A DNA stretch of 64,000 nt from Janibacter sp. Soil728 (GTDB lineage: Bacteria > Actinomycetota > Actinomycetes > Actinomycetales > Dermatophilaceae), in contig NZ_LMRZ01000006.1 in the NCBI RefSeq assembly GCF_001428305.1, forward strand, positions 124,001 to 188,000. Reading direction: 5' to 3'. This document shows positions 2,960 to 15,449 of this stretch, one piece after another. A program made the position numbers and the translations under genes. Each line of letters begins with the position of its first letter. Positions within the stretch are counted from its first letter, which is position 1. The notes under the pieces were generated by a model that was not told the origin of the DNA, made no database searches, and saw only the letters and a list, made by a program, of their open reading frames with translations.

Positions 2960-3415
2960 ATGGACCTCACACACGCCCGTCACCCCCGTCGCTCGGCCGT
3001 CGCCCTGATCGGGGCGGTCGCGCTGCTGTCCGCCTGTGGTGGAGGTGACGGCGGGGAGTCCTCGTCCACCGCGTCCACCGCGTCCACCACCAGCGCAGCG
3101 AGCCCCAGCTCGCAGAGCGCGTCCTCGTCGGGAGGCGAGGCATCGTCATCATCCGCGCCGGCAGCCGAGAAGGTCGTCATCACCATCTCGGACTTCGCGT
3201 TCTCCGTGCCGGAGTCGGTGCCGGCCGGCGCAGAGATCAGCGTCACCAACAACGACTCCATCGGGCACACCGTCACTGCTGACTCGGGGGACGCCTTCGA
3301 CGTGAACGTCGCCCCGGGCGCCACGGTGACCTTCGCTGCACCGGAGAAGCCGGGAACGTACGCCTTCCACTGCAAGCCGCACCCGAACATGACCTCGTCG
3401 CTGGTCGTGAAGTGA
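2960..3415 (+). CDS. Cupredoxin (plastocyanin-like) lipoprotein
   Basis: A secreted, lipid-anchored type I copper protein of 151 residues. The signal peptide ends in a lipobox (LSAC, Cys26). A Ser/Thr/Ala-rich linker (about 30-66) follows, then a plastocyanin/azurin-like domain. The copper ligands are all visible: His103 (IGHTV) and the Cys138-x2-His141-x2-Met144 loop (HCKPHPNM). It probably passes electrons or binds copper at the outer membrane face. An in-frame ATG at 2951 is an alternative start. The next gene starts on the stop codon (GTGA), so the two are likely coupled. Confidence 0.87.
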   Translation: MDLTHARHPRRSAVALIGAVALLSACGGGDGGESSSTASTASTTSAASPSSQSASSSGGEASSSSAPAAEKVVITISDFAFSVPESVPAGAEISVTNNDSIGHTVTADSGDAFDVNVAPGATVTFAAPEKPGTYAFHCKPHPNMTSSLVVK

Positions 3416-3837
3416 GCCGGGTCGGAGAGGTCACGCTCCGTCTCGTCGTGGCCGCAGCACTGGCGGTGGACTGCGTCATCCACCTCATGCTGGCTGACGT
3501 GATCCAGCTGGCCGCACCCGGCGGCGTCGGTGGCGGCAACCTCTTCCGGGCGCAAGCGCTCGCCGCCGGGCTGGCGGCCGTGCTGCTGCTCGCCACCGGA
3601 CGCCGCTTCGCCTACGTCGTGGCCGGGCTGGTGGCGCTCAGCGCCTTCGTCCCGGTGCTGCTGTACACCTACGTGGCGGTGCCGGCCCTCGGACCGATCC
3701 CGTCGATGTACGACCCCACGTGGTCCGACGACAAGCTCATCAGTGCCGTCTGCGAAGGAGCCGCCGCACTGCTCGCCGCGATCGGCGTCGCCGTGACCCG
3801 GCGCTCTCCCATCAGCTCCCGGCCGTCACCTCGATGA
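3412..3837 (+). CDS. Small four-helix membrane protein coupled to the cupredoxin
   Basis: 141 residues with four hydrophobic segments (about 8-30, 42-60, 64-85 and 108-127) and a short polar loop before the last. The GTG start overlaps the cupredoxin stop by three bases, so expression is likely linked and the protein may be the membrane partner of the lipoprotein. No named family is recognised with confidence. The 3' end overlaps the convergent oxidoreductase gene by 26 bases, a tail-to-tail overlap. Confidence 0.75.
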   Translation: MSRVGEVTLRLVVAAALAVDCVIHLMLADVIQLAAPGGVGGGNLFRAQALAAGLAAVLLLATGRRFAYVVAGLVALSAFVPVLLYTYVAVPALGPIPSMYDPTWSDDKLISAVCEGAAALLAAIGVAVTRRSPISSRPSPR

Positions 3838-4822: not shown

Positions 4823-5074
4823 ATGGACACTCCTCGCGACGCACCGACGGACTCGCAGCGGTGGGTGGCCCAGCGGGCGACGCCGATCATGGCGATCATG
4901 GCCGTCCTGGCTCTGGTGGGTGCGGCCTGGGGCGTGAGTCTCTGGCGAGGCGGCAGCACGTGGGGCGCCGTCGCGCTCGCGGTCGTCGTGATGGTCCTGG
5001 TCTTCCAGGTGGTGTCGACCCGGGAGATCGCCAAGCACGTCGCAGCCCAGGACTCCGAGCCACCGCGCCCATGA
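4823..5074 (+). CDS. Small two-helix membrane protein
   Basis: 83 residues with a polar N-terminus, two adjoining transmembrane helices (about 22-40 and 46-64) separated by a short WRGGSTWG turn, and a charged C-terminal tail. Third codon positions are strongly G/C, so it is probably real. No family is recognised. It has its own apparent leaderless promoter and is divergent from the oxidoreductase gene, with only 81 bases between the two starts. Confidence 0.65.
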   Translation: MDTPRDAPTDSQRWVAQRATPIMAIMAVLALVGAAWGVSLWRGGSTWGAVALAVVVMVLVFQVVSTREIAKHVAAQDSEPPRP

Positions 5075-5126
5075 CGGGACCGGCTGCTGCAGCCAGCCCG
5101 TCGAGGACCGGACCACTCTCCCGGTG

Positions 5127-5486
5127 TCAGGCCTTCTTGACGACGCTGGACTTGAGCAGGATCTCGCCGAATCCGGCGACCTTCGCCTCGATGTCGTGGC
5201 CGTCGCCGCTGTCGGGGATCATCCGGATGCCACTGACCTTGGTGCCGATCTTGAGCGAACCGCCGCCCGAGCCCTTGACCTTGAGGCTCTTGACGATCGT
5301 CACGGTGTCCCCGTCGACCAACGGGTTGCCGACCGCGTCGCGCGTGACCGGCTCGGCGTCGGCGTCCTCCGCGTCCGCCGTCCACTCGTGGGCGCACATC
5401 GGGCAGGTGAGGAACCCGCCGCTCTCGTAGGTGAGGTCGCTGGCGCACTCGGGGCACGGGGGGAGCTGGTCGTCGGACATCGACAT
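5127..5486 (-). CDS. yjdM: YjdM (PhnA-type) zinc-ribbon protein
   Basis: 119 residues matching the YjdM/PhnA family along its whole length. The N-terminal zinc ribbon has two Cys pairs (CPEC and CPMC), followed by the conserved DGDTVTIVKSLKVKGS block and a C-terminal KSSVVKKA. The family was named for a phosphonate link, but its biochemical role is still unclear. Starts at 5486 and 5480 are both possible; a GTGAGGA ribosome site serves either, with spacing slightly better for 5480. It is divergent from the Cds1 gene. Confidence 0.85.
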   Translation of the reverse strand: MSMSDDQLPPCPECASDLTYESGGFLTCPMCAHEWTADAEDADAEPVTRDAVGNPLVDGDTVTIVKSLKVKGSGGGSLKIGTKVSGIRMIPDSGDGHDIEAKVAGFGEILLKSSVVKKA

Positions 5487-5547
5487 GGTCCTCACTGAAA
5501 GAGCGGTCACACGGACGCGGGCTGCGACCGGGTGACATCGTAGGAGC

Positions 5548-6678
5548 ATGGCCAGTCACACCGCTCCCCCCACGCCCACCGTCGCGGCCGAGGAGGACGT
5601 CAACCGCTACGACCCGGACTACCGCCAGTGGCTCGAGACGGCGATCCGCAAGGTGCGCAGCGACGCCAACCGCTCGGCGGACACCCACCTGGTCCGGGTG
5701 CCGCTCCCCGCGCAGTGGGGCGTGGACCTCTACCTCAAGGACGAGTCGGTGCACCCGACCGGTTCGCTGAAGCACCGCCTGGCGCGTTCCCTCTTCCTCC
5801 ATGCCCTGTGCAACGGGTGGATCCACCCGGGCAGGCCGGTCGTCGAGGCGTCCAGCGGGTCGACGGCCGTGTCCGAGGCCTACTTCGCCTCGCTGATCGG
5901 TGTCCCCTTCTATGCGGTGATGGCGCGATCGACGAGCCGGCAGAAGGTGGACCTCATCGAGTTCCACGGCGGGACCTGCCACTTCGTCGACAACGCCCAC
6001 GAGGTCTACGCGGTCGCCGCGGCACTCGCCGAGGAGACCGGCGGCCACTACATGGACCAGTTCACCTACGCCGAGCAGGCCACGGACTGGCGCGGCAACA
6101 ACAACATCGCCGAGTCGATCTTCGAGCAGATGTCGATGGAGCCCCACCCCGAGCCAGCGTGGATCGTCGCGACGGCCGGCACCGGTGGCACCTCGGCGAC
6201 TCTCGCGCGGTACGTCCGCTACACCGGACGCTCGACGGGCATCTGCGTCGCGGACCCGGAGAACTCCGCCTTCTTCCTCGGGTGGCGCGACCACGACCCG
6301 GGCGTCACGACGGCGGTCGGCTCGCGCATCGAGGGCATCGGGCGGCAGCGGGTCGAGTCCAGCTTCATCGCGACGAGCATCGACCGGATGATGCGCGTGC
6401 CGGACGCTGCCTCGATCGCCTCGGTCCTGCTGCTGGAGCAGCTCCTCGGTACGCGAGCGGGCGCCTCCACGGGGACCAGCCTGTGGGCCGCGCTGCGCAT
6501 CGTCTCCGAGATGGTCGCGTCAGGGACGAAGGGGAGCATCGTCTCGTTGATCTGCGACCCGGGCGAGCGCTACCTCGACAAGTACTACTCGGCGACGTGG
6601 TTGGCGGACAACGGCATCGACATCGAGCCCTACCGAGCGCGGCTTGGTGAGTTCATGCGCACCGGCCTGCTGCGCTGA
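5548..6678 (+). CDS. cds1: PLP-dependent L-cysteine desulfhydrase (Cds1-like)
   Basis: 376 residues of the cysteine synthase fold-type II family. The PLP-binding lysine is in HPTGSLKHRLA (Lys75), the substrate loop is SSGSTAVSEAY, and the phosphate cradle is the Gly-rich TAGTGGTSA. Overall it resembles the mycobacterial Rv3684/Cds1 group rather than CysK/CysM, having an extended N-terminus and a long C-terminal region. Cds1 releases sulfide, pyruvate and ammonia from cysteine; that activity is inferred. An AGGAG sits almost against the ATG. A cysteine synthase-like role cannot be excluded. Confidence 0.75.
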   Translation: MASHTAPPTPTVAAEEDVNRYDPDYRQWLETAIRKVRSDANRSADTHLVRVPLPAQWGVDLYLKDESVHPTGSLKHRLARSLFLHALCNGWIHPGRPVVEASSGSTAVSEAYFASLIGVPFYAVMARSTSRQKVDLIEFHGGTCHFVDNAHEVYAVAAALAEETGGHYMDQFTYAEQATDWRGNNNIAESIFEQMSMEPHPEPAWIVATAGTGGTSATLARYVRYTGRSTGICVADPENSAFFLGWRDHDPGVTTAVGSRIEGIGRQRVESSFIATSIDRMMRVPDAASIASVLLLEQLLGTRAGASTGTSLWAALRIVSEMVASGTKGSIVSLICDPGERYLDKYYSATWLADNGIDIEPYRARLGEFMRTGLLR

Positions 6679-6774
6679 GGCAGCCCGGCGCCAACTGACC
6701 CGTGACCCGGATGCCGGCCTCCGCTAGCGTGAGGAACCACCCGGCAACGGCGCCGGGTCGACTCGGAGGCTGAC

Positions 6775-6984
6775 ATGGCAAACAGGACCTACAACATCAC
6801 CGAGATCGTCGGCACCTCTCCCGACGGGGTCGAGGCGGCCGTCAACAATGCGATCGCCGAGGCGTCGGAGACGCTGCGCAATCTCGACTGGTTCGAGGTG
6901 CAGTCGATCCGCGGACACGTCACGGGTGACGCCGTCGCCGACTGGCAGGTGACGATCAAGCTGGGCTTCCGCCACGACGCCTGA
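6775..6984 (+). CDS. Dodecin (flavin storage protein)
   Basis: 69 residues, the full family length. It shows the dodecin pattern: N-terminal beta-strand (YNITEIVGTSPDG), a single helix (EAAVNNAIAEASETL), then NLDWFEVQSIRGHV, where the Trp stacks on flavin in characterised dodecins. The protein assembles as a 12-mer that sequesters FMN/FAD or coenzyme A. A good GGAGG ribosome site lies five bases upstream of the ATG. It lies between Cds1 and the dehydrogenase-like gene with its own spacing, so it is probably transcribed separately. Confidence 0.9.
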   Translation: MANRTYNITEIVGTSPDGVEAAVNNAIAEASETLRNLDWFEVQSIRGHVTGDAVADWQVTIKLGFRHDA

Positions 6985-7024
6985 GCCGAGCCGGCGTCCG
7001 GTCAGGGCGCGACGACGGTGGGCG

Positions 7025-7030
7025 TACAGT
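7025..7030 (+). promoter_or_regulatory. Candidate -10 box (TACAGT)
   Basis: TACAGT matches TANNNT and lies 43 bases before the chosen start at 7074, leaving a short leader with a GGGAG ribosome site. No clear -35 box was seen. Confidence 0.35.
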
Positions 7031-7073
7031 CCGAGCAGGAGCTGACTCGGGTTCCCCAACCATGGGAGTCCGG

Positions 7074-8288
7074 ATGTCCGGCACCGCTCAACACTCTGCA
7101 GCTGTCCCCCCTTCGTCAGGCACTACCGCTGCGAGCTCGCTCCTCACCCTCGGCCTGCTCGCCGGATCGTCGATGGAGAACGAGCGACGACTTCCGCTGC
7201 ATCCTCACCACCTGGACCGGATCGACCCCGACCTGCGAGCCAAGATGATCGTGGAGCGCGGGTACGCCGCGGACTTCCAGCTGGAGCCCGGGTACATCGA
7301 GTCACGCGTGGGACGAGTCGCGGATCGCACCGAGGTGATCGAGTCCGCGGACGTCCTGCTGCTGCCCAAGCCACAAGCGGCAGACGTCATCGCGATCCCG
7401 CAGGGGCGGGTCCTGTGGGGGTGGCCGCACTGCGTGCAGGACGCGCAGATGACCCAGACCGCGATCGACCGCCGGCTCACGCTCATCGCCTTCGAGGCCA
7501 TGAACCACTGGAGCCGCCAGGGAGACTTCAGCCTGCACGTGCTCCACAAGAACAACGAGCTGGCCGGCTACTGCTCGGTCGTGCACGCATTGAGCCTTCG
7601 CGGGTCGACGGGTGACTACGGACCGCGGTTGAGTGCGGTCGTCATCGGCTTCGGGGCCACTGCGCGCGGCGCGGTCACCGCGCTCAAGGCCCACGGGATC
7701 CACAACATCCAGGTCCTCACGCAGCGAGGCGCCTCAGCGGTCGGCTCGCCGATCCACAGCGCGCACATCACCCAGCTGCACACCGGCGACGGCCCGACCC
7801 ACCTCAGCACCGTGACCACGGACGAGGGCGAGGTCCTGCTCCCGACCTTCCTCGCGTCGCACGACATCGTCATCAACTGCACGCTCCAGGACCCGCTGGC
7901 ACCGATGACCTACCTGAGGACCGAGGACCTGGAGGAGTTCCCCCCGGGCAGCCTGATCATCGACGTCTCCTGCGACGAGGGGATGGGGTTCGAGTGGGCG
8001 CGGCCCACGGAGTTCGAGGACCCGATGTTCGTCGTCGGGCAGGGAGTGAACTACTACGCCGTCGACCACAGCCCGTCGTACCTGTGGAACTCCGCCACCT
8101 GGGAGATCAGCGAGGCACTCCTGCACTTCCTCCGCCCGGTGATGGAAGGACCCTCCGCCTGGGCGCAGAACCTGACCATCTCCCGTGCGATCGAGATCCA
8201 CGACGGAGTCATCAAGAACCCGGCCATCCTGGAGTTCCAGGGTCGCGAGACCGACTACCCCCACGCCAGGACTGCCCAGGTGTCCTGA
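7074..8288 (+). CDS. Alanine dehydrogenase/N5-(carboxyethyl)ornithine synthase-like enzyme
   Basis: 404 residues of the AlaDH/PNT superfamily. The N-terminal catalytic domain begins with ENERRLPLHPHHLDRI, in the region that carries substrate-binding basic residues in the family. It has the paired VLLLPKPQAADV segment, and the Rossmann domain opens with SAVVIGFGATARGAVTAL. The closest described group I can name is N5-(carboxyethyl)ornithine synthase or saccharopine/lysine-forming relatives rather than true alanine dehydrogenase. The substrate is unknown. ATG 7074 was chosen over 7062 because GGGAG lies six bases before it. The next gene starts about 50 bases later, possibly in the same operon. 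Confidence 0.65.
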   Translation: MSGTAQHSAAVPPSSGTTAASSLLTLGLLAGSSMENERRLPLHPHHLDRIDPDLRAKMIVERGYAADFQLEPGYIESRVGRVADRTEVIESADVLLLPKPQAADVIAIPQGRVLWGWPHCVQDAQMTQTAIDRRLTLIAFEAMNHWSRQGDFSLHVLHKNNELAGYCSVVHALSLRGSTGDYGPRLSAVVIGFGATARGAVTALKAHGIHNIQVLTQRGASAVGSPIHSAHITQLHTGDGPTHLSTVTTDEGEVLLPTFLASHDIVINCTLQDPLAPMTYLRTEDLEEFPPGSLIIDVSCDEGMGFEWARPTEFEDPMFVVGQGVNYYAVDHSPSYLWNSATWEISEALLHFLRPVMEGPSAWAQNLTISRAIEIHDGVIKNPAILEFQGRETDYPHARTAQVS

Positions 8289-8342
8289 CGCCGCGTCGGG
8301 AACCGCACGCCGCGATCACCGGGCTGGGGGACAATGGACGCG

Positions 8343-9023
8343 ATGAGTACGACAGACCTCTGGTACGTGTCCTACGGCTCCAACATGTCCCGTCGGCGGC
8401 TCGGCTCCTACATCGAAGGGGGCCGACCGCCCGGCTCAGCGGTGACCTATGTCGGTGCACGTGACACGACGATGCCTCTCGCTGACATGGCCGTCACCCT
8501 CCCCGGCAGCCTGTACTTCGCGGGCGAGTCGCGCACGTGGGGCGGCGGGGTCGCCTTCTACGACCACGACTCCCCCGGCGCTACCGCGGCCCGCGCCTAC
8601 CGGGTCACCGTCAGCCAGTTCGTCGACATCGCGGCCCAGGAGATGCACCGCATCCCCGACCCGGGCGACCCTCTCGAGGCCGTGCTCCTCAACGGCCTGG
8701 ACGGTGCCCGCCACCAGGCAGGCCCGGGCGTCTACGAGACCCTGATCGAGGTGGGCCGGCACGACGGTCTGCCGATGCTGACCTTCACCGCTCCCCACGG
8801 ACTGACCTCGGTACCCCACACGGCTCCGCGTCCCGCCTACCTCGCGATGCTCGCCGAAGGTCTGCGCGAGGCGCACGGGTGGGACGAGGAGCAGATCGCC
8901 GAGTACTTCGCCACCGTCATCCGCGGTGAGGGCGACGGGGGCCTCACAGCTCCCCCTTCGCACGACCGTGCAGCGCTGGACCGGATGACAGAGGACCCCG
9001 ACTTCGCCGGCGGCCCCTGGTAA
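8343..9023 (+). CDS. Gamma-glutamylcyclotransferase-like protein
   Basis: 226 residues. The opening DLWYVSYGSNMSRRRL is the YxSYGSN signature of the GGCT-like fold, and the family member pattern continues with LYFAGESRTWGGGVAFYD. Actinobacterial homologues are often labelled histone deacetylase in databases, which the sequence does not support. The reaction would be release of 5-oxoproline from a gamma-glutamyl compound, or an unknown variant. ATGs at 8334 and 8343 are both possible; a G-rich ribosome site fits 8343 better. It follows the carboxyethylornithine-synthase-like gene closely, which may link their substrates. Confidence 0.65.
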   Translation: MSTTDLWYVSYGSNMSRRRLGSYIEGGRPPGSAVTYVGARDTTMPLADMAVTLPGSLYFAGESRTWGGGVAFYDHDSPGATAARAYRVTVSQFVDIAAQEMHRIPDPGDPLEAVLLNGLDGARHQAGPGVYETLIEVGRHDGLPMLTFTAPHGLTSVPHTAPRPAYLAMLAEGLREAHGWDEEQIAEYFATVIRGEGDGGLTAPPSHDRAALDRMTEDPDFAGGPW

Positions 9024-9063
9024 CCGGTCGCGGGCTCCTCCTCCGACGGCGCGTCGTCGACGG

Positions 9064-9588
9064 TCAGCCGATCAGGTAGACCATGCCCCGCCCATCGGCG
9101 GCGAGGCCGTCGACGAAGGTCTGCGCTCTGTGCAGGTAGGAGAGTGCGTAGGCGACTTCGCTCTCGGGCTCGTCGCAGCGCCGCAGGACACCTCGGAGCT
9201 GCCGATCCGCGTCACCATCGGTGATGGAGGCCGCGTCGCGTGCGATCGCCGGGATCTCCGCGGGGACAAGAGTCCGCACCCAGGGCTCCCAGCCCGCGCC
9301 CGTCATGACCACCTGGCCCTCGAACATGCGGTGCGACGGGCGAGGACGCGAGGCTCCCCCTTCGTCCACGGAAGCCGTGAGTGCCTGCAGATGGCCCCAC
9401 GCCTTGTCGAGGTAGAGCATGTCTCGATGCGGCACGCTCTGCTGGAAGGACGGTGTCGCGCAGGTGAAGCCGTGGGGCGCACCCCAGGCATCCGCCAGCG
9501 GGTCAGCGGAGAGGACAGTGCATGGATCGGCGAGCGCCTGCTCGGTCTGATCGTGGTCGAAGGCGTAGGCGTAGTAGCGGATTCCCAT
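9064..9588 (-). CDS. DUF1877-like protein
   Basis: 174 residues starting MGIRYYAYAFD. The general plan fits DUF1877 (YfbM-like): a short N-terminal strand, a central LYLDKAWGHLQALT segment, and a GQVVMTGAGWEPWVRTLVPAE block. Function is unknown in the family. No signal peptide or membrane helix. It converges with the GGCT-like gene with 40 bases between stops. The assignment rests on the conserved dKaW segment and is moderate. Confidence 0.6.
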   Translation of the reverse strand: MGIRYYAYAFDHDQTEQALADPCTVLSADPLADAWGAPHGFTCATPSFQQSVPHRDMLYLDKAWGHLQALTASVDEGGASRPRPSHRMFEGQVVMTGAGWEPWVRTLVPAEIPAIARDAASITDGDADRQLRGVLRRCDEPESEVAYALSYLHRAQTFVDGLAADGRGMVYLIG

Positions 9589-9732
9589 CCCGACAGCGTG
9601 GCCACAGGGCTCGCGCGTTGTGCCTCCACGGCGAGCCCTGGGGACAACCCCACGCCCCCCACAGGCCTTGTGGATCGGCCCAGAGCGGGCTCAGTGGGAC
9701 GGCTCCCATGCCGCCGACGCGGGGAGCTTCGT

Positions 9733-10251
9733 TCACGCCGCCTGGACTACCGCTGCGCCTCGCTGGTCGACGCGGTGGTGGTGGCCACGCATGACCAATC
9801 GGGCGACGGGCTGCGCCAGGAGCGCCTCGACCACGAACGCGATCATGAAGTTGCGCGGCCAGTTCTCGAAGAAGTGCACCAAGGACTCGGTCGTCACGCT
9901 CCAGTTTCCGATCCAGGGTCCGACGACCGTGAGGATCACGGAGATCAGCAGGACGCTGCACAGCGTGTCCGCCAGGATGTGCGCACGGAAGCTGTCGCCC
10001 GTGCGGACGAGACGGCCTGTCAGCCACATCGCGGGTTGGCGAGTCAGCATGACGACCGCAATGACGACGACCCACAGCAGCGGGAGCACTCGCAGCACCC
10101 CCACCCACATGTCGAGCGTGAAGCCGATGCTCAGCCCTGTGATGATCACGGGGATGATGTTCACCGAGAGCAACGAGATCATGAGCACGAAGAGCAGTGA
10201 CTCTCGTCCCGACCGCGGAAGATGGGTGCCGAACTTGTGGTGGTCGCTCAT
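9733..10251 (-). CDS. DUF2798-type membrane protein, preceded by a terminator-like leader
   Basis: 172 residues with four hydrophobic helices in two related halves (about 17-40, 46-68; 92-112, 126-148). Each half ends in a positively charged motif (ALTGRLVR-like and QPVARLVMR), consistent with a double DUF2798 architecture. Function is unknown. The ATG follows AGAGAGAAG, a weak ribosome site. Base composition is clearly lower in GC than the flanking genes, as in the GNAT gene upstream, suggesting transfer. The 60-base leader contains a strong hairpin with a U-run 20 bases before the ATG (separate entry). Confidence 0.7.
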   Translation of the reverse strand: MSDHHKFGTHLPRSGRESLLFVLMISLLSVNIIPVIITGLSIGFTLDMWVGVLRVLPLLWVVVIAVVMLTRQPAMWLTGRLVRTGDSFRAHILADTLCSVLLISVILTVVGPWIGNWSVTTESLVHFFENWPRNFMIAFVVEALLAQPVARLVMRGHHHRVDQRGAAVVQAA

Positions 10252-10270
10252 AAAACTTCTCTCTGAACAC

Positions 10271-10307
10271 GAAAAAGCGCCCCTCCCAAGAATCTGGGAT
10301 GGGCGCT
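10271..10307 (-). terminator. Intrinsic terminator or attenuator hairpin with U-run in the DUF2798 leader
   Basis: On the minus strand a 13-bp stem (10307-10295 with 10288-10276, one mismatch) closes a six-base loop and is followed at once by five T residues (10275-10271). It is the only hairpin in the window I found with a real U-tract. It lies 20 bases before the DUF2798 start codon. It may end transcripts from the GNAT gene, attenuate DUF2798, or terminate a very short RNA. Confidence 0.7.
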
Positions 10308-10317
10308 GGATCTGACG

Positions 10318-10347
10318 GTTATACGCGCTACATCGGTCGTAGTCTAA
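10318..10347 (-). promoter_or_regulatory. Candidate promoter upstream of the hairpin (TTAGAC-18-TATAAC)
   Basis: On the minus strand, -35 TTAGAC (10347-10342) and -10 TATAAC (10323-10318) are spaced by 18 bases, an unusually good sigma-70-like match for this genome. Predicted start near 10311, only a few bases before the terminator hairpin. Confidence 0.5.
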
Positions 10348-10409
10348 CGCATCGCCACAGCCGAACCTGCTTCCTCGCTCGGCGGTGGCGTCGAGGAGTC
10401 AGAACTCAG

Positions 10410-10430
10410 ACGTTGAAGCGGAACTCCACC
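10410..10430 (+). repeat. 21-bp direct repeat of the ychF 3' end (distal copy)
   Basis: Identical over 21 bases to 11112-11132, which is the last coding stretch of ychF (the codons for VEFRFNV). This copy lies just beyond the stop codon of the GNAT gene, about 700 bases from the real ychF end. The two copies bracket the GNAT gene like attachment sites. Confidence 0.75.
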
Positions 10431-10438
10431 GAGCTTCG

Positions 10439-10963
10439 TCACTCGTGAAGCACCTGGGCGACAGCCACCGGCCGCACCCAGATTCGAGCGGTCGACTGCA
10501 CACTCCCAGAAACGTACGGCACCGCTTCACCGGTGGGCTCGTAGCCAAGCTTCGTCCAGAACGGTGCGGCCAGATCGGCATTGGTATCAACGATCGCCAG
10601 CCGGAGCGACTTGATGCCTGGCCTCCGGCCAGCCAGGTCGACCACTGCGTCGTGCATCATGCGGCCGAGGCCTTCACCCTGACGAGCACCGTCCGTCATC
10701 AGCAGGCCGATGTGAGCGACAGACGCGGTGGGCCATCCGAGGATCACGTCCGCAAAGGCGACGAGTTCCTGACCATTCCACAACCCGAGATCAACCTTGT
10801 GCGAGATCGGCACCGCCGGCGGCAGCGCCGACAGGACTCCGTCTGCAGCGGCGGGCGTCGGCACAGCCCCCTCGACGCGACGTGAATACTCAGCGTTGGA
10901 TTCCATGATGCGCTGTACAGCCATGGACTGACTCGGACCGATTAACCGTGCTTCCATCTGCAT
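10439..10963 (-). CDS. GNAT-family N-acetyltransferase
   Basis: 174 residues. The acetyl-CoA loop is visible as DGARQGEGLGRMMHDAVV (about residues 91-108), matching Q/RxxGxG/A, followed by LRLAIVDTNADLAAPFWTKLGYEPTGE, the usual motif B region. The acceptor substrate is unknown. GC content is visibly lower than in ychF, and the gene is flanked by short copies of the ychF tail, suggesting it was acquired. ATG codons at 10963 and 10957 are both possible starts; the ribosome site is unclear. Confidence 0.82.
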   Translation of the reverse strand: MQMEARLIGPSQSMAVQRIMESNAEYSRRVEGAVPTPAAADGVLSALPPAVPISHKVDLGLWNGQELVAFADVILGWPTASVAHIGLLMTDGARQGEGLGRMMHDAVVDLAGRRPGIKSLRLAIVDTNADLAAPFWTKLGYEPTGEAVPYVSGSVQSTARIWVRPVAVAQVLHE

Positions 10964-11040
10964 GTCTCCGAAGTTCAGCTTGAATCAACGACATCAGCAT
11001 CGACCTGAGGGCTCAATTCTGGAGCTCATCCAGCTCGTGC

Positions 11041-11107
11041 CTAAGACGTTGAACCGGAAATGTACGGCACTGCCACTCCCGCCGAAAACTGCGCGTGACC
11101 AGTGCTC
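11041..11107 (-). pseudogene. Remnant of a GNAT-like gene joined to a partial ychF tail copy
   Basis: Bases 11054-11073 match 10506-10525 inside the GNAT gene at 17 of 20 positions; both encode an AVPY[IV]SGS segment on the minus strand. Overlapping it, 11046-11059 matches the ychF tail repeat at 13 of 14 positions. No start codon or complete domain remains. The surrounding 60 bases at 10981-11040 are about 53% GC by hand count, far below the rest of the window. Confidence 0.4.
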
Positions 11108-12193
11108 TTACACGTTGAAGCGGAACTCCACCACGTCGCCGTCGACCATGACGTACTCCTTGCCCTCCATGCGCACCTTGCCGGCAGCCTTGGCATCGGC
11201 CATCGAGCCGAGCGCATCGAGGTCATCGAAGGAGACGACCTCGGCCTTGATGAAGCCGCGCTCGAAGTCGGTGTGGATGACGCCCGCGGCCTGAGGAGCC
11301 TTGTCGCCGCGGTGGATCGTCCACGCGCGCGACTCCTTGGGACCGGCGGTCAGGTAGGTCTGCAGGCCGAGGGTGTTGAAGCCCTTGCGCGCCAGCTGGT
11401 CCAGGCCCGGCTCGTCGATGCCGACGGACTCGAGCAGCTCGCGCGCCTCGTCGTCCTCGAGCTCGGCGACCTCGGACTCGAGCTTGGCGTTGAGGAAGAT
11501 CGCCTCGGCCGGCTCGACGAGCGCCTGCATCTTCGCCTGCAGGTCGGTGTCGGTCAGCTGGTCCTCGTCGACGTTGAAGACGTAGATGAAGGGCTTGGTG
11601 GTGAGCAGGCCCAGTCCGGCGGCGATCTCCATGTCGATGCCGGCTGCGGCTCCCTTCGCAGAGAGGGTGTCGCCCGCCTCGAGCACCTCGCGGGCAGCGA
11701 CGGCCGCGTCGAGGACGGCCTTGTCGATCTTCTTGCCCTTGAGCTCCTTCTCCAGGCGCGGGATGGCGCTCTCGAGGGTCTGCAGGTCAGCGAGCACGAG
11801 CTCGGTGTTGATGGTCTCCATGTCGGAGGCCGGGTCGATGCGACCGTCGACGTGCGTCACGTCGTCGTCGACGAAGGCGCGCACCACCTGGCAGATCGCG
11901 TCCGACTCGCGGATGTTGGCGAGGAACTTGTTGCCCAGCCCCTCCCCTTCGCTCGCACCACGGACGATGCCGGCGATGTCGACGAAGGACACCGTCGCGG
12001 GGAGGATCTTCTCGCTGCCGTGGATCTCGGCGAGCCGCTTCAGCCGGACATCCGGCAGCGGGACGACGCCGACATTCGGCTCGATGGTCGCGAAGGGGTA
12101 GTTCGCGGCCAGGACATTGTTCTTGGTCAGCGCGTTGAACATCGTCGACTTGCCGACGTTGGGGAGACCGACGATTCCGATGGAGAGTGCCAC
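11108..12193 (-). CDS. ychF: Ribosome-binding ATPase YchF (Obg family)
   Basis: 361 residues, full length. G1 loop GLPNVGKST (residues 9-17), switch region SFVDIAGIVRGASEGEG, and the G4 site NVDE in place of NKxD, the change that gives YchF its ATP preference. A TGS-type C-terminal domain ends in FRFNV. YchF acts on ribosomes and in oxidative-stress responses. The start is GTG 12193. A TAGACT -10 box on the minus strand (12208-12203) leaves a leader of only a few bases. Short repeats of its 3' end lie downstream. Confidence 0.95.
   Translation of the reverse strand: MALSIGIVGLPNVGKSTMFNALTKNNVLAANYPFATIEPNVGVVPLPDVRLKRLAEIHGSEKILPATVSFVDIAGIVRGASEGEGLGNKFLANIRESDAICQVVRAFVDDDVTHVDGRIDPASDMETINTELVLADLQTLESAIPRLEKELKGKKIDKAVLDAAVAAREVLEAGDTLSAKGAAAGIDMEIAAGLGLLTTKPFIYVFNVDEDQLTDTDLQAKMQALVEPAEAIFLNAKLESEVAELEDDEARELLESVGIDEPGLDQLARKGFNTLGLQTYLTAGPKESRAWTIHRGDKAPQAAGVIHTDFERGFIKAEVVSFDDLDALGSMADAKAAGKVRMEGKEYVMVDGDVVEFRFNV
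11112..11132 (+). repeat. 21-bp direct repeat at the ychF 3' end (coding copy)
   Basis: The original copy of the repeat also found at 10410-10430. It encodes the conserved C-terminal residues of YchF, so the sequence is constrained here but has no coding role at the distal site. Confidence 0.75.
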
Positions 12194-12205
12194 GGGGACA
12201 AGAGT

Positions 12206-12496
12206 CTAACCGGGCGAAGGGAGATCCCCACCTCGGTCCCCGGCGACCACCCACCGACGGAGCAGGAAACGCGCTGACCACCAGATCGCGACGAAGAGCA
12301 CGAGCAGCCCCAGCAGGCGCACCCACGAGCCCCCGGTCGTTGCCACCACCGGCACGTACATCAGGGTGGCCAGCACCGGGATCGCGGCGAACAGCAGGGC
12401 AAAGTCTTTGACGGTCTCCCGCCCCCACATCGACCACAGCATGACCCCGCGGGTCGGGCGACGCCTCGGCAGCTTCTCCGGAAGCAGGTCGCTCAC
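12206..12496 (-). CDS. Small two-helix membrane protein coupled to the NUDIX gene
   Basis: 96 residues. A basic N-terminus (EKLPRRRPTR) is followed by two transmembrane helices (about 31-51 and 60-78), with an RRW motif after the second. The GTG start at 12496 overlaps the stop of the NUDIX gene (GTGA), the same coupling as elsewhere in the window. No family recognised. It ends just before the ychF promoter region. Confidence 0.7.
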   Translation of the reverse strand: MSDLLPEKLPRRRPTRGVMLWSMWGRETVKDFALLFAAIPVLATLMYVPVVATTGGSWVRLLGLLVLFVAIWWSARFLLRRWVVAGDRGGDLPSPG

Positions 12497-13053
12497 AGGC
12501 CGTCCCGCGGCGCGGAGTTCTCGAGGTAGGCGGTCCCCTCGCGCGTGCCCATGTCCAGCTCGGCGATCATCCGGGCGGTGTACGGCGCGACGTGCTCCGC
12601 CACGGTGGCGGCATCGGCCCAGTGCACGGCCCTGATCTCCCGCGTCTGCAGGGTGACGCCAGCCAGGGCGTCCTCGGGGACGTGGCCGAGGTCGAAGAGG
12701 CACAAGAGAGCGTCGTCCCAGCCGCGGTAGGGCGGCAGCCAGTTGACGGCGAGCATGCCCTGCACGACGACGTCGAGGCCGAGCTCCTCCTTGACCTCAC
12801 GCACGACGCAGTGGGCCGGCGACTCCCCCGGATCGACGATGCCGCCGGGCAGGTCCCAGTCCTTCTTGTAGGTCAGCTGGCACAGGGCGATGCGCTCCCC
12901 CTCGGTGCGCAGGACGCCTTGGGCGATCAGGCGCTTCTTGGGCATGCGGGCGTTGAGGACCTTGATGAAGGCGCTGCGCCCAGCCTCCGTGGCGAGGTTG
13001 GGACGGGGGGTCGAAGCCTTGACCTCGTCCTCGTGCGGCTCGTCTGTCGGCAT
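12493..13053 (-). CDS. NUDIX hydrolase
   Basis: 186 residues with a complete Nudix box GGIVDPGESPAHCVV then REVKEELGL (Gx5Ex7REUxEExGU). The rest reads like a general nucleoside-diphosphate-derivative hydrolase with a central WLPPYRGWDDALLCLF segment. The substrate is not predictable. The ATG at 13053 is preceded on the minus strand by TAGCCT and six bases, so the transcript is probably leaderless. It is translationally coupled to the downstream small membrane protein. Confidence 0.87.
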   Translation of the reverse strand: MPTDEPHEDEVKASTPRPNLATEAGRSAFIKVLNARMPKKRLIAQGVLRTEGERIALCQLTYKKDWDLPGGIVDPGESPAHCVVREVKEELGLDVVVQGMLAVNWLPPYRGWDDALLCLFDLGHVPEDALAGVTLQTREIRAVHWADAATVAEHVAPYTARMIAELDMGTREGTAYLENSAPRDGL

Positions 13054-13059
13054 GGTTCG

Positions 13060-13065
13060 AGGCTA
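13060..13065 (-). promoter_or_regulatory. -10 box of a leaderless promoter (NUDIX gene)
   Basis: TAGCCT on the minus strand, six bases from the ATG at 13053, with no ribosome site between. Confidence 0.5.
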
Positions 13066-13078
13066 CCCGCGGCCCCTG

Positions 13079-13374
13079 TCACGCACCGAGCCGTCCGTCG
13101 ACCCGCTCCCGCAGGAGGTCGGCGTGGCCGAGGTGGCGCGCGTACTCCTCGATCATGTGCAGCATGAGGGCGCGGACGCTCCAGGTGTCGCCCCCGTTGT
13201 CGTCGAAGGTGTCGTCCAGCGCGTGCGCGGCGAGGATCTCGTCGGAGGAGGCGCACTCAGCCCGAGGAGGGACGGGGTCGACGGCTCAGCGGCTCGGGTG
13301 GCGAGCTGCTCCGGGGTCAGGCCCGCGCATTCTTCCTCGAGGGTCTCGTGCGCGCTGCCACGGGATGAAGTTCA
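13079..13374 (-). pseudogene. DUF664/DinB-family pseudogene with an internal deletion
   Basis: Two recognisable pieces in different frames. Near 13259-13350 the minus strand reads ETLEEECAGLTPEQLATRAA then EPSTPSLLGL, the N-terminal signature of DUF664 proteins. From about 13257 to 13079 another frame reads WSVRALMLHMIEEYARHLG then HADLLRERVDGRLGA and a stop, the family C-terminus. The middle of the protein is missing, the join shifts frame, and a stop lies just upstream of the first piece with no start codon. An intact relative is encoded at 16715-17377 with a matching EEYGRHTGHADLLREAVDGR end. Confidence 0.75.
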
Positions 13375-13535
13375 GAGCAGCTGTCGCTCGTCACCTACCG
13401 GGCGAAGGGAGTCGAGGTTCCCTACCGTCGTCACCGATGAGCGCCTGCGCGCGTGGGGTCACTCTCATGCACCCACGATCCTGCGGCCTGCGAGTCGCGT
13501 CAACGCCACGAGCGTTGTCAGTGCTCGGCGAGAGG

Positions 13536-15449
13536 ATGAGTCATGGGTCGTCGATGAGGACGAAGGGGGATGACGTGGAGGTCATCAACGCGGTACAGGT
13601 AGGGCTGGAGTCGGCGGGGCTGGATCCGGTAGGGCTGGAGTCGGTGGAGGAGCATTGTGTCGCCCGGGTGGCGCCGGTCGCGGAGGTCATGGGCCGGGTG
13701 CTGGCTCTCGTGGGAGGGGCCCGGAGCCGGGCGCTGGACGCGCCGTCTGCGATCGACGATCAGGAGCTCGAGGCGTCCTTGCGCGCGACCGAGGCCGCGC
13801 GCCGGGCGGTCGACGCGATGGAGCTGACGCTCGTCGCCGAGCTCAACCGGCACGGTGAGCAGAGGTGCTCCGACGGGATCTACCGCGATGAGCGGCTGGC
13901 AGAGGGCCAGGTCGCCGAGATGGCCCCGGACGCCCTGGCCCTCGCCATCGGGGTGGGACCGACCGAGGCCGACCGACGCTGCAGGCTCGCGGCACGCGCC
14001 GCCACGGACCTCGCAGCCCTGACCACACTCCTGGCGAGCGGCAGGATCAGCCGTCGGACGTTGGAGCAGGTGCACAAGCACACGCGCGACACCAAGCCGG
14101 AGACGACGCAGGCGATGGTGGATCACTTCCTCGGGGCCAAGCGCGGGCAGCCCGGCTCCATCCGGATCACGGACATGGAGCCGCACGAGGTCGCCAAGAC
14201 CTGCCGTCGGCTCGTCACCCGGCTCGATCCCGACCTCATGCAGGCCCGGGCAGATGCCAATCGTGCAACGCGTCTGGACGTGCGGTCCGAGCCGGGGCCG
14301 ATCGGCACGAGTTGTCTGACGGCCACGCTGCCGAGCGAGATGGGTGCTGCGGTGAAGTCGGCCGTCGACGAGGCCGGCAAGCTCCGCCTCGAGGACGACC
14401 CCTCGATGCCGCTCGGCACCGCACGGGCGATGGGTCTGGCCGACCTGGTGCTGCGCGGGGTCGAGGTCGAGGCACAGGTCCGGCTGGGCATCCCGGTCAT
14501 CGCCTCGGCGGTCTCTCGGCTGACCTTCGCCCCTGCGCGGCCGACCTGCCCCGGGTGTCACCCCGACCGGGCTGCCGCCGACACCGAGCGCCACGAAGCG
14601 ATCCTCGGCGAGCTCCTCGGCGAGGGAGTCACCTACGAGCGCGCGACGACGGAGACGGTCCGCATCGTCACCGGTTCGGGGGCGGACGAGGTCGACGTGC
14701 TGTCGGAGGAGTGGATGCCGGACGTCACCACTCAGGTCCGCGCCGACGTGGGCACGAGGACTAGCCATGAGGGCGGTGCCCCGTGGGTGTCCGGCACGAC
14801 CATCCCCGGAGTCGGCTTCGTACCACCCGACGTGGTCGCCGCCATCGTGGGACGACTCGACACCAAGGTGGGCCGGGCTCTGCTCGACGCGCGCACCGGC
14901 ACTCTCCTCGAGACCTCGACCACCAGCTACGCAATCCCCAAGGCGCAGCGTGAGTTCGTGGCAACCCGAGACGGGAAGTGCCGGATGTGGGGCTGCGAGC
15001 GCCCCGCCCTCTCGACGCGCCTCGGGTGGCAGGCCGACGTCGATCACGCCACGCCGTGGCCCGAGGGCGAGACGACGCCCGGCAACCTGTCGGACCTGTG
15101 CCGGCACCACCACAGGGTGAAGCACTCCGCGCGCTGGACCCACCGTCTCAACTCCGACGGGTCGACCGAGTGGATCACGCCCGGCGGCACGGTGGCCTTC
15201 ACCTTCCCTGCGCACGCAGTGGACGCAGACGACGAGGTGGACGAGCCCGGTTGGTCCCCGCCCACGGGGACCAACGAGGGCGACGACGTCGAGGATGAGG
15301 ACGTGGAGGGTGCTTCGTCCCCGGGCACGGGGACCAACGATGACCCGGAGTCCGCGGTCGCGATGGAAGCCGTGGTCGCGATGACCGGCTCGTCCCCGTC
15401 CACGGGGACCAAGGCACCGGCGCCCTTCATCGGTCCGTTCCCCTTCTGA
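13536..15449 (+). CDS. DUF222 / HNH endonuclease-domain protein
   Basis: 637 residues. The N-terminal and central part is the DUF222 region typical of high-copy actinobacterial 13E12-like proteins. The HNH nuclease motif is near the C-terminus: the CRMWGCERP cysteine pair, then DVDHATPWPEGE and LCRHHHRVKH. Substrate and role are unknown; families of this type are often repeated many times per genome. After the HNH domain comes a low-complexity acidic tail with three SPxTGT repeats encoded by palindromic DNA. ATG 13536 is chosen; GTG 13575 with a strong G-rich ribosome site is a good alternative. A short 17-bp direct repeat (13598 and 13628) marks the N-terminus. Confidence 0.85.
   Translation: MSHGSSMRTKGDDVEVINAVQVGLESAGLDPVGLESVEEHCVARVAPVAEVMGRVLALVGGARSRALDAPSAIDDQELEASLRATEAARRAVDAMELTLVAELNRHGEQRCSDGIYRDERLAEGQVAEMAPDALALAIGVGPTEADRRCRLAARAATDLAALTTLLASGRISRRTLEQVHKHTRDTKPETTQAMVDHFLGAKRGQPGSIRITDMEPHEVAKTCRRLVTRLDPDLMQARADANRATRLDVRSEPGPIGTSCLTATLPSEMGAAVKSAVDEAGKLRLEDDPSMPLGTARAMGLADLVLRGVEVEAQVRLGIPVIASAVSRLTFAPARPTCPGCHPDRAAADTERHEAILGELLGEGVTYERATTETVRIVTGSGADEVDVLSEEWMPDVTTQVRADVGTRTSHEGGAPWVSGTTIPGVGFVPPDVVAAIVGRLDTKVGRALLDARTGTLLETSTTSYAIPKAQREFVATRDGKCRMWGCERPALSTRLGWQADVDHATPWPEGETTPGNLSDLCRHHHRVKHSARWTHRLNSDGSTEWITPGGTVAFTFPAHAVDADDEVDEPGWSPPTGTNEGDDVEDEDVEGASSPGTGTNDDPESAVAMEAVVAMTGSSPSTGTKAPAPFIGPFPF
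15252..15411 (+). repeat. Three in-frame palindromic repeats in the DUF222/HNH tail
   Basis: Copies begin at 15254, 15317 and 15392. Each has the form GTCCCCG, four variable-centre bases, then CGGGGACCAA, and encodes SPxTGT(N/K). The spacings of 63 and 75 are multiples of three, so the reading frame is kept. The first copy is a 24-base palindrome with arms TTGGTCCCCG and CGGGGACCAA. Confidence 0.7.

Follow-up and report, generated by a model that had tools for sequence, protein, structure and literature searches.

Small riboswitches such as preQ1-I sit in very compact leaders, where the ligand-bound form competes with the terminator. Among attenuators, the antiterminators of the ANTAR and LicT types are described as parting the terminator stem from its U-tract (PMC3369936). 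According to the same account, the ANTAR leaders (amiE, nasF, eut) have an antiterminator stem that overlaps the 5' side of the terminator and, once stabilised, leaves a shorter terminator off the U-tract; their stem-loops number two (P1 and P2), each loop having A1 and G4 (PMC3369936). The RAT of the BglG/SacY/LicT systems and its terminator are mutually exclusive, the terminator foot overlapping the RAT (PMC9981650); the RAT has a longer stem with two asymmetric internal loops (PMC3369936), and a PTS-linked regulator gene accompanies the described cases. At pyrG, reiterative attenuation relies on reiterated G at the transcript start and uses a short leader with an intrinsic terminator, with neither leader peptide nor regulator gene (PMC4448216).

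The leader described here lies before a gene for a DUF2798-like membrane protein in a 64-kb window (the whole stretch of Janibacter sp. Soil728 DNA that was analysed, 64,000 nucleotides), and it shares traits with each of these systems. Its proposed antiterminator stem would overlap the 5' side of the terminator, as in ANTAR leaders, and the two structures would exclude each other, as with the RAT; like pyrG, it is short, ends in an intrinsic terminator and was found with neither leader peptide nor regulator gene. From the comparison of homologous loci, about even odds (a probability of roughly 0.5) are given to its being a cis-acting, three-strand transcription attenuator that goes with this family of DUF2798-like genes and moves with them.

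The leader, its gene and their distribution

Eleven leaders were compared: those of the window, of Ornithinimicrobium sp. F0845 (L035), of a Lactiplantibacillus plasmid type (L036), of two phage-like IMG/VR contigs (L046 and L047), and of G725, G595, G1198, G1099, G1050 and G1119, which belong to the phylum of the window but to a different class. Read from the letters, the minus-strand leader consists, in order, of TAGACT-17-TATAAC, a hairpin, T5, 20 nt and the ATG at 10251. Its features are as follows.

10342..10347, minus strand: TTAGAC, the -35 of the sequence-only reading; better read as TAGACT-17, with 4/6 matches
10341..10346, minus strand: TAGACT, candidate -10 of an upstream promoter with an expected start at about 10334; gap of 12 nt to strand 1
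10325..10328, minus strand: strand 1 (GCGC), which would form the 5' side of the antiterminator stem; 11/11 leaders have a strand 2 complementary to it
10307..10324, minus strand: conserved loop GUAUAACCGUCAGAUCCA, with a length of 18 nt shared by the window and F0845 and of 13 nt in the nine remaining leaders
10318..10323, minus strand: TATAAC, the -10 of the sequence-only reading, here placed within the loop, as putatively transcribed, from leader comparison and promoter scores
10276..10307, minus strand: terminator hairpin, 13 pairs with one A.G mismatch; covariation among homologues and a compensatory pair with F0845
10303..10306, minus strand: strand 2 (GCGC), at the 5' foot of the terminator, with strands 1 and 3 as alternative partners
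10277..10280, minus strand: strand 3 (GCGC), at the 3' foot of the terminator, the partner of strand 2 in that stem
10272..10276, minus strand: U-tract (T5), the single T5 run of the window; a T run lies 3' of the hairpin in 11/11 leaders
10256..10264, minus strand: purine-rich AGAGAGAAG, a possible ribosome binding site judged from its sequence
9733..10251, minus strand: gene for a 172-aa DUF2798-like membrane protein, putatively leader-controlled; from translation, Pfam and structure prediction

The hairpin RNA folds at -25.2 kcal/mol (z -3.05), a stability equalled by 3 of 200 shuffles, and the pattern GCGCCC-N8-24-GGGCGCTTTTT has one match in the window and none in 100 shuffles. The sequence-only reading had described a 13-pair hairpin with U5, 20 nt before the start codon, which the letters at 10307-10272 bear out; its remark that no other hairpin with a U-tract occurs in the window also holds, T5 runs numbering zero on the plus strand and one, the leader's own, on the minus strand. 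A generic promoter and terminator scan of positions 5000-15000 listed nothing, the leader hairpin included.

The assignment of the gene to DUF2798 is kept as a weak likeness: the protein matches the Pfam family (PF11391) at E 0.048 and 14.2 bits, below the gathering cut-off of 23.5, and is hence termed DUF2798-like only. Five of nine homologues match the family at E <= 0.1 (best E 2.6e-5). Pfam and NCBIfam searches returned no function for the protein, and its best sequence match among solved structures has an E-value of 0.2. The predicted structure, of low confidence (mean pLDDT 61.7), comprises four long helices and one short one, and a PDB fold search with it gave 156 matches at E <= 10 and none at E <= 0.001. 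In the full-text literature searched, DUF2798 came up in one paper, which touches on it in passing.

The gene is rare. It was detected in 1 of 58 relatives and 1 of 394 genomes of the class (its own genome in both cases), in 4 of 186 genomes of the family (its own, one at E 3.1e-79 and two weak matches), in 1 of 248 genomes of the order, in 4 of 296 phylum members, one match being weak, and in 6 of 197 genomes of the class of G725. Further homologues occur in eleven Bacillota plasmid records and three IMG/VR contigs; phage records holding the protein were searched for and none was found. The homologue of Ornithinimicrobium sp. F0845 matches at 78% and is, as in the window, located beyond ychF. 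In that strain (L035, 3001-3517) the ATG matching the start used in the window is out of frame with the rest, the open frame spanning 3005-3517; this gene copy may be disrupted or start elsewhere, and its leader is intact.

Several observations concern the surroundings of these loci. In the window, the frames at 8334-9023 (plus strand, 229 aa) and 9064-9588 (minus strand, 174 aa) match no Pfam family even at E <= 10, and a 69-aa frame at 6775-6984 resembles a dodecin. On IMG/VR contigs L046 (2995-3480) and L047 (2995-3495), the cassette sits on the opposite strand and is flanked by genes resembling, by eye, portal and terminase genes, in the manner of a phage moron. Elsewhere the cassette is carried by MobQ plasmids of lactobacilli (L036, 1995-2474; L045, 3001-3480), adjoining in L045 the genes for a heavy-metal P-type ATPase and for a sigma-factor-like HTH protein. 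At about 1820-1870 of L036, approximately 100 nt upstream of the lactobacillus leader, there is an additional hairpin with a T-rich stretch after it (CGCCAC...GTGGCACTTTCTTT).

Conservation and pairing of the leader

The leader is almost certainly conserved, to judge from its recurrence before 11 of the 16 distinct homologous genes whose upstream DNA was read; the Lactiplantibacillus plasmid leader is identical in 5 plasmid records. The element is absent upstream of the Enterococcus (L037) and the two Paenibacillus (L038, L044) homologues and, judged by eye, upstream of the divergent homologue G1224 (L063), while in Lactobacillus amylolyticus (L043) this position is taken by a hairpin with T7, and the conserved segment is missing. 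That leader and gene are kept together in two bacterial phyla and in phage-like DNA suggests a travelling on/off switch.

A covariance model, R1, was built from nine leaders, leaving out those of the window and F0845. Its best match in the window is the leader at full length (22.1 bits, E 0.0014), a score on a par with its terminator-only matches in L038 and L044 (21.1-22.5 bits). At E <= 1 the model misses the F0845 leader, which reaches 8.8 bits with filters off, and a whole-genome search did not list the window leader. The score is modest; the case for the leader stands on the recurrence of one element, in a constant position, ahead of the same gene.

Searches for the element before other genes, by blastn in plasmids and phages and by pattern in IMG/VR, returned the known loci and L052, the latter without a complementary strand 2 and without a T run; blastn with the element also gave two Microbacterium phage matches of 37 nt at E 0.07, and further weak matches were listed. 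A second copy in the genome of the window was considered and rejected, one search having recovered only the leader itself and a 14-nt chance match, and the whole-genome model search a single match of 14.4 bits (E 4.95). Likewise rejected was a role as terminator of the upstream gene alone: this gene, a GNAT acetyltransferase at 10439-10963, occurs in 1 of 16 genomes of the genus (its own), and the leaders stay with the DUF2798-like gene. No Rfam family matched the window at gathering score, and E-value scans of L035, L036, L046, L056, L059 and L061 produced sub-threshold matches at two leaders, Atu_C4 at 25.7 bits (gathering 80) and SNORA77 at 23.1 bits (gathering 42).

Covariation of the terminator was assessed on nine leaders (8 distinct), again without the window and F0845. 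In the 12-pair stem, 99.0% of 96 cells are paired. Changes on both sides affect 7 of the 12 pairs, a count that taken alone is reached by 120 of 500 shuffles; the cells changed on both sides number 24 where 9.0 would be expected by shuffling, the covariation score is 0.702 where shuffles give 0.267, and each of these two values is reached by 0 of 500. Sliding the pairing lowers the score to at most 0.226 and the paired cells to at most 54.2%. Between the window and F0845, a compensatory exchange replaces A-U with G-C. Since the arms differ in sequence while their pairing and the T run persist, an RNA terminator is indicated rather than a DNA operator formed by the hairpin arms, which was rejected on this pattern. 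A G+C-rich stem-loop with a U run directly after it characterises intrinsic terminators, and the leader very probably holds a working one between promoter and start codon. The earlier proposal that expression needs read-through is thus upheld, and more strongly so by the conservation of the interposed terminator with covariation.

Directly 5' of the terminator, a segment of the form GYGC-GUAYAAY...UCA-GCRC is also conserved. All 11 leaders begin it with GCGC, GUGC or ACGC, followed by GUA(U/C)AA(C/U), and end it with UCA, or with CCA in two of them; the last foursome, which is the 5' foot of the terminator, is complementary to the first in 11/11. Nine leaders keep the foursomes exactly 13 nt apart; in the window and F0845 the distance is 18 nt. 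For this alternative stem of strands 1 and 2, all 32 cells are paired across the nine leaders, and one of the four pairs is changed on both sides, the other three being invariant. The covariation score of this 4-bp stem is reached by 5 of 500 shuffles; the stem does not surpass its two controls, for pair number and for number of pair types (409 and 500 of 500 shuffles, respectively), and in a register slid by +3 it scores 0.214 against 0.268. The leaders with GUGC:GCAC form one clade (91/94, not starred), so the covariation amounts to about two events. F0845 contributes an independent exchange, ACGC with GCGU (G-C to A-U relative to the window), for which its terminator keeps only a G.U pair. 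The sequence support for this pairing is real but thin, and the chances that the stem acts as an antiterminator appear evenly balanced.

Coding explanations of the segment were rejected by eye. The lone ATG after the upstream -10 in the window runs straight into TAG (10333-10328), this ATG TAG is absent from the homologues and nothing is shared in its place; moreover, it is second codon positions that carry substitutions, and the frame is not kept in the window. The sequence-only reading had seen no space for a leader peptide or an aptamer. A lack of room for a sensor is doubtful, as the conserved loop could fill that role if it is transcribed.

Position of the promoter

The promoter proposed from the sequence alone, described as a good TTAGAC-18-TATAAC, is present in letters (10347-10342 and 10323-10318); TTAGAC holds 2 of 6 bases of the -35 consensus by hand count, and the alternative register TAGACT-17-TATAAC holds 4 of 6. 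With TATAAC as the -10, transcription would start at about 10311, almost on the hairpin, terminated RNA would measure about 40 nt, and control would be exerted by read-through or by a start-site shift within the 5' arm that gives a shorter hairpin. As for the tiny RNA having a function of its own, the comparison speaks neither for nor against it. Within the window this site is the stronger, TAGACT-17-TATAAC scoring 9.7 (p 0.006) against 4.3 (p 0.148) for the upstream site. TA(T/C)AA(C/T) recurs in 11/11 leaders, as TATAAT in 4 of them, and TCAG sits at start-site distance, in the window too, where its distance from TATAAC is kept within one base despite a loop longer by 5 nt, as a fixed start site would require. 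Across the 11 leaders, however, the mean best -35 match of TATAAY is 2.55 of 6 against a background of 2.39, no leader has the TGn of an extended -10 before it, and its last base is C in seven. Conservation also takes in GYGCG and NRNUCA, superfluous for a -10, and GYGC covaries with GCRC. The letters and the window score stand; that TATAAC is the -10 is doubtful, and this account of the leader as a whole is regarded as unlikely, although it is the best of the alternatives.

The upstream position was assessed on nine leaders (L047 and L058 being left out as near-duplicates) in 14 bins of 22 positions, with hand-entered weight matrices and with the bin picked once the leaders were known. The nearest bin, 4-25 nt upstream of strand 1, takes ranks 1, 1, 1, 1, 1, 2, 2, 3 and 5 of 14, with a mean z of 1.74 against -0.59 to 0.34 for the other bins; shuffle tests of the upstream promoter gave p from <0.002 to 0.40, four of nine leaders falling below 0.05. 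In the window, the bin ranks second of 14. A promoter upstream of the element is thus somewhat the likelier for the family, even though the window alone scores the other site higher. If the promoter is upstream, TATAAC would lie inside the RNA, and the terminated transcript would be about 60 rather than about 40 nt long.

A proposed attenuator among known leaders

Under the three-strand attenuator, transcription would start a few to about 20 nt upstream of the conserved segment. Strand 1 (GYGC) and strand 2 (GCRC) would form a 4-bp hairpin closing a loop of 13 nt (18 nt in the window), and this conserved loop would be the sensor. In all 11 leaders the terminated state is favoured over the antiterminated one by 6.0 to 9.6 kcal/mol; with the antiterminator hairpin the weaker by that amount, transcription would by default stop at the terminator and leave a short RNA. 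If some ligand, protein or condition stabilised the loop, strand 2 would be held, leaving the remaining terminator stem 4 nt away from the U-tract and allowing the polymerase to read into the gene, in the manner described for ANTAR and LicT leaders (PMC3369936). Read-through is probably regulated.

Besides the DUF2798-like gene, distant loci have no gene in common within the 1.5-3 kb compared; neighbours are shared only by the window and F0845, by the two plasmids, by L046 and L047 and by L056 and L058, with a 27% match between L047 and L059. Since no regulator gene stands beside the cassette, the signal or factor is probably common to many Gram-positive cells; equally, the lack of a shared neighbour would fit either a general factor or an RNA that senses by itself.

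A plain brake or insulator would dispense with regulation altogether, the mobile membrane-protein gene being kept at low, constant expression and the segment serving as promoter or spacer. Insulation would be useful to a cassette found on plasmids, phage-like contigs and unrelated chromosomal sites, yet about 20 conserved bases before the stem, and a distance of exactly 13 nt from GYGC to GCRC in nine leaders, are superfluous for such a device, which is considered improbable. Less probable still, and by a clear step, is a repressor-bound DNA operator, GYGC-N13-GCRC, over the promoter, with the hairpin as a separate terminator: the inverted repeat does take in TATAAY, but its spacing of 13 in nine leaders and 18 in the window and F0845 differs by half a helical turn, its inner bases are asymmetric, and no common regulator gene lies nearby. 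That the hairpin serves to stabilise the mRNA at its 5' end, and not to terminate it, is hardly credible, for although it would lie near the 5' end under either promoter, the T run right after the stem in 11/11 leaders would be superfluous.

Should the leader prove to be a regulated attenuator, the signal it answers to would offer a first way into what this membrane-protein family does. It would then also, at about 50 nt and working in distant Gram-positive hosts with no regulator gene beside it, be one of the most compact sensors known, and a practical building block for strains in which regulatory tools are scarce. More speculatively, it may represent a new class of cis-regulatory RNA whose sensor is a single 4-bp hairpin with a conserved loop of about 13 nt, GUAUAAYNRNUCA. 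The input would be a widespread small molecule, ion or RNA-binding protein, and the response would be to turn off the overlapping terminator; together with the small four-helix membrane protein, this RNA would form a self-contained cassette that travels among the chromosomes of actinobacteria, the plasmids of lactobacilli and phage-like contigs.

Set against the described systems, the leader resembles preQ1-I-like riboswitches in compactness, with no Rfam family at gathering score in the window, and among the papers listed for short-leader attenuators and such motifs none was an evident match. Where ANTAR leaders, as described, carry two stem-loops, the leaders compared here have one candidate 4-bp stem, whose 13- or 18-nt loop begins with G. 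Compared with the RAT as characterised in the accounts cited, the sole 5' pairing found is again that 4-bp stem, and no RAT sequence, stem or neighbour was seen; nor does a G run occur at 10334 or 10311, of the kind on which pyrG relies. The leader is thus set apart from ANTAR, RAT and pyrG by their defining features as given in those accounts, and in kind it would be a terminator-based attenuator.
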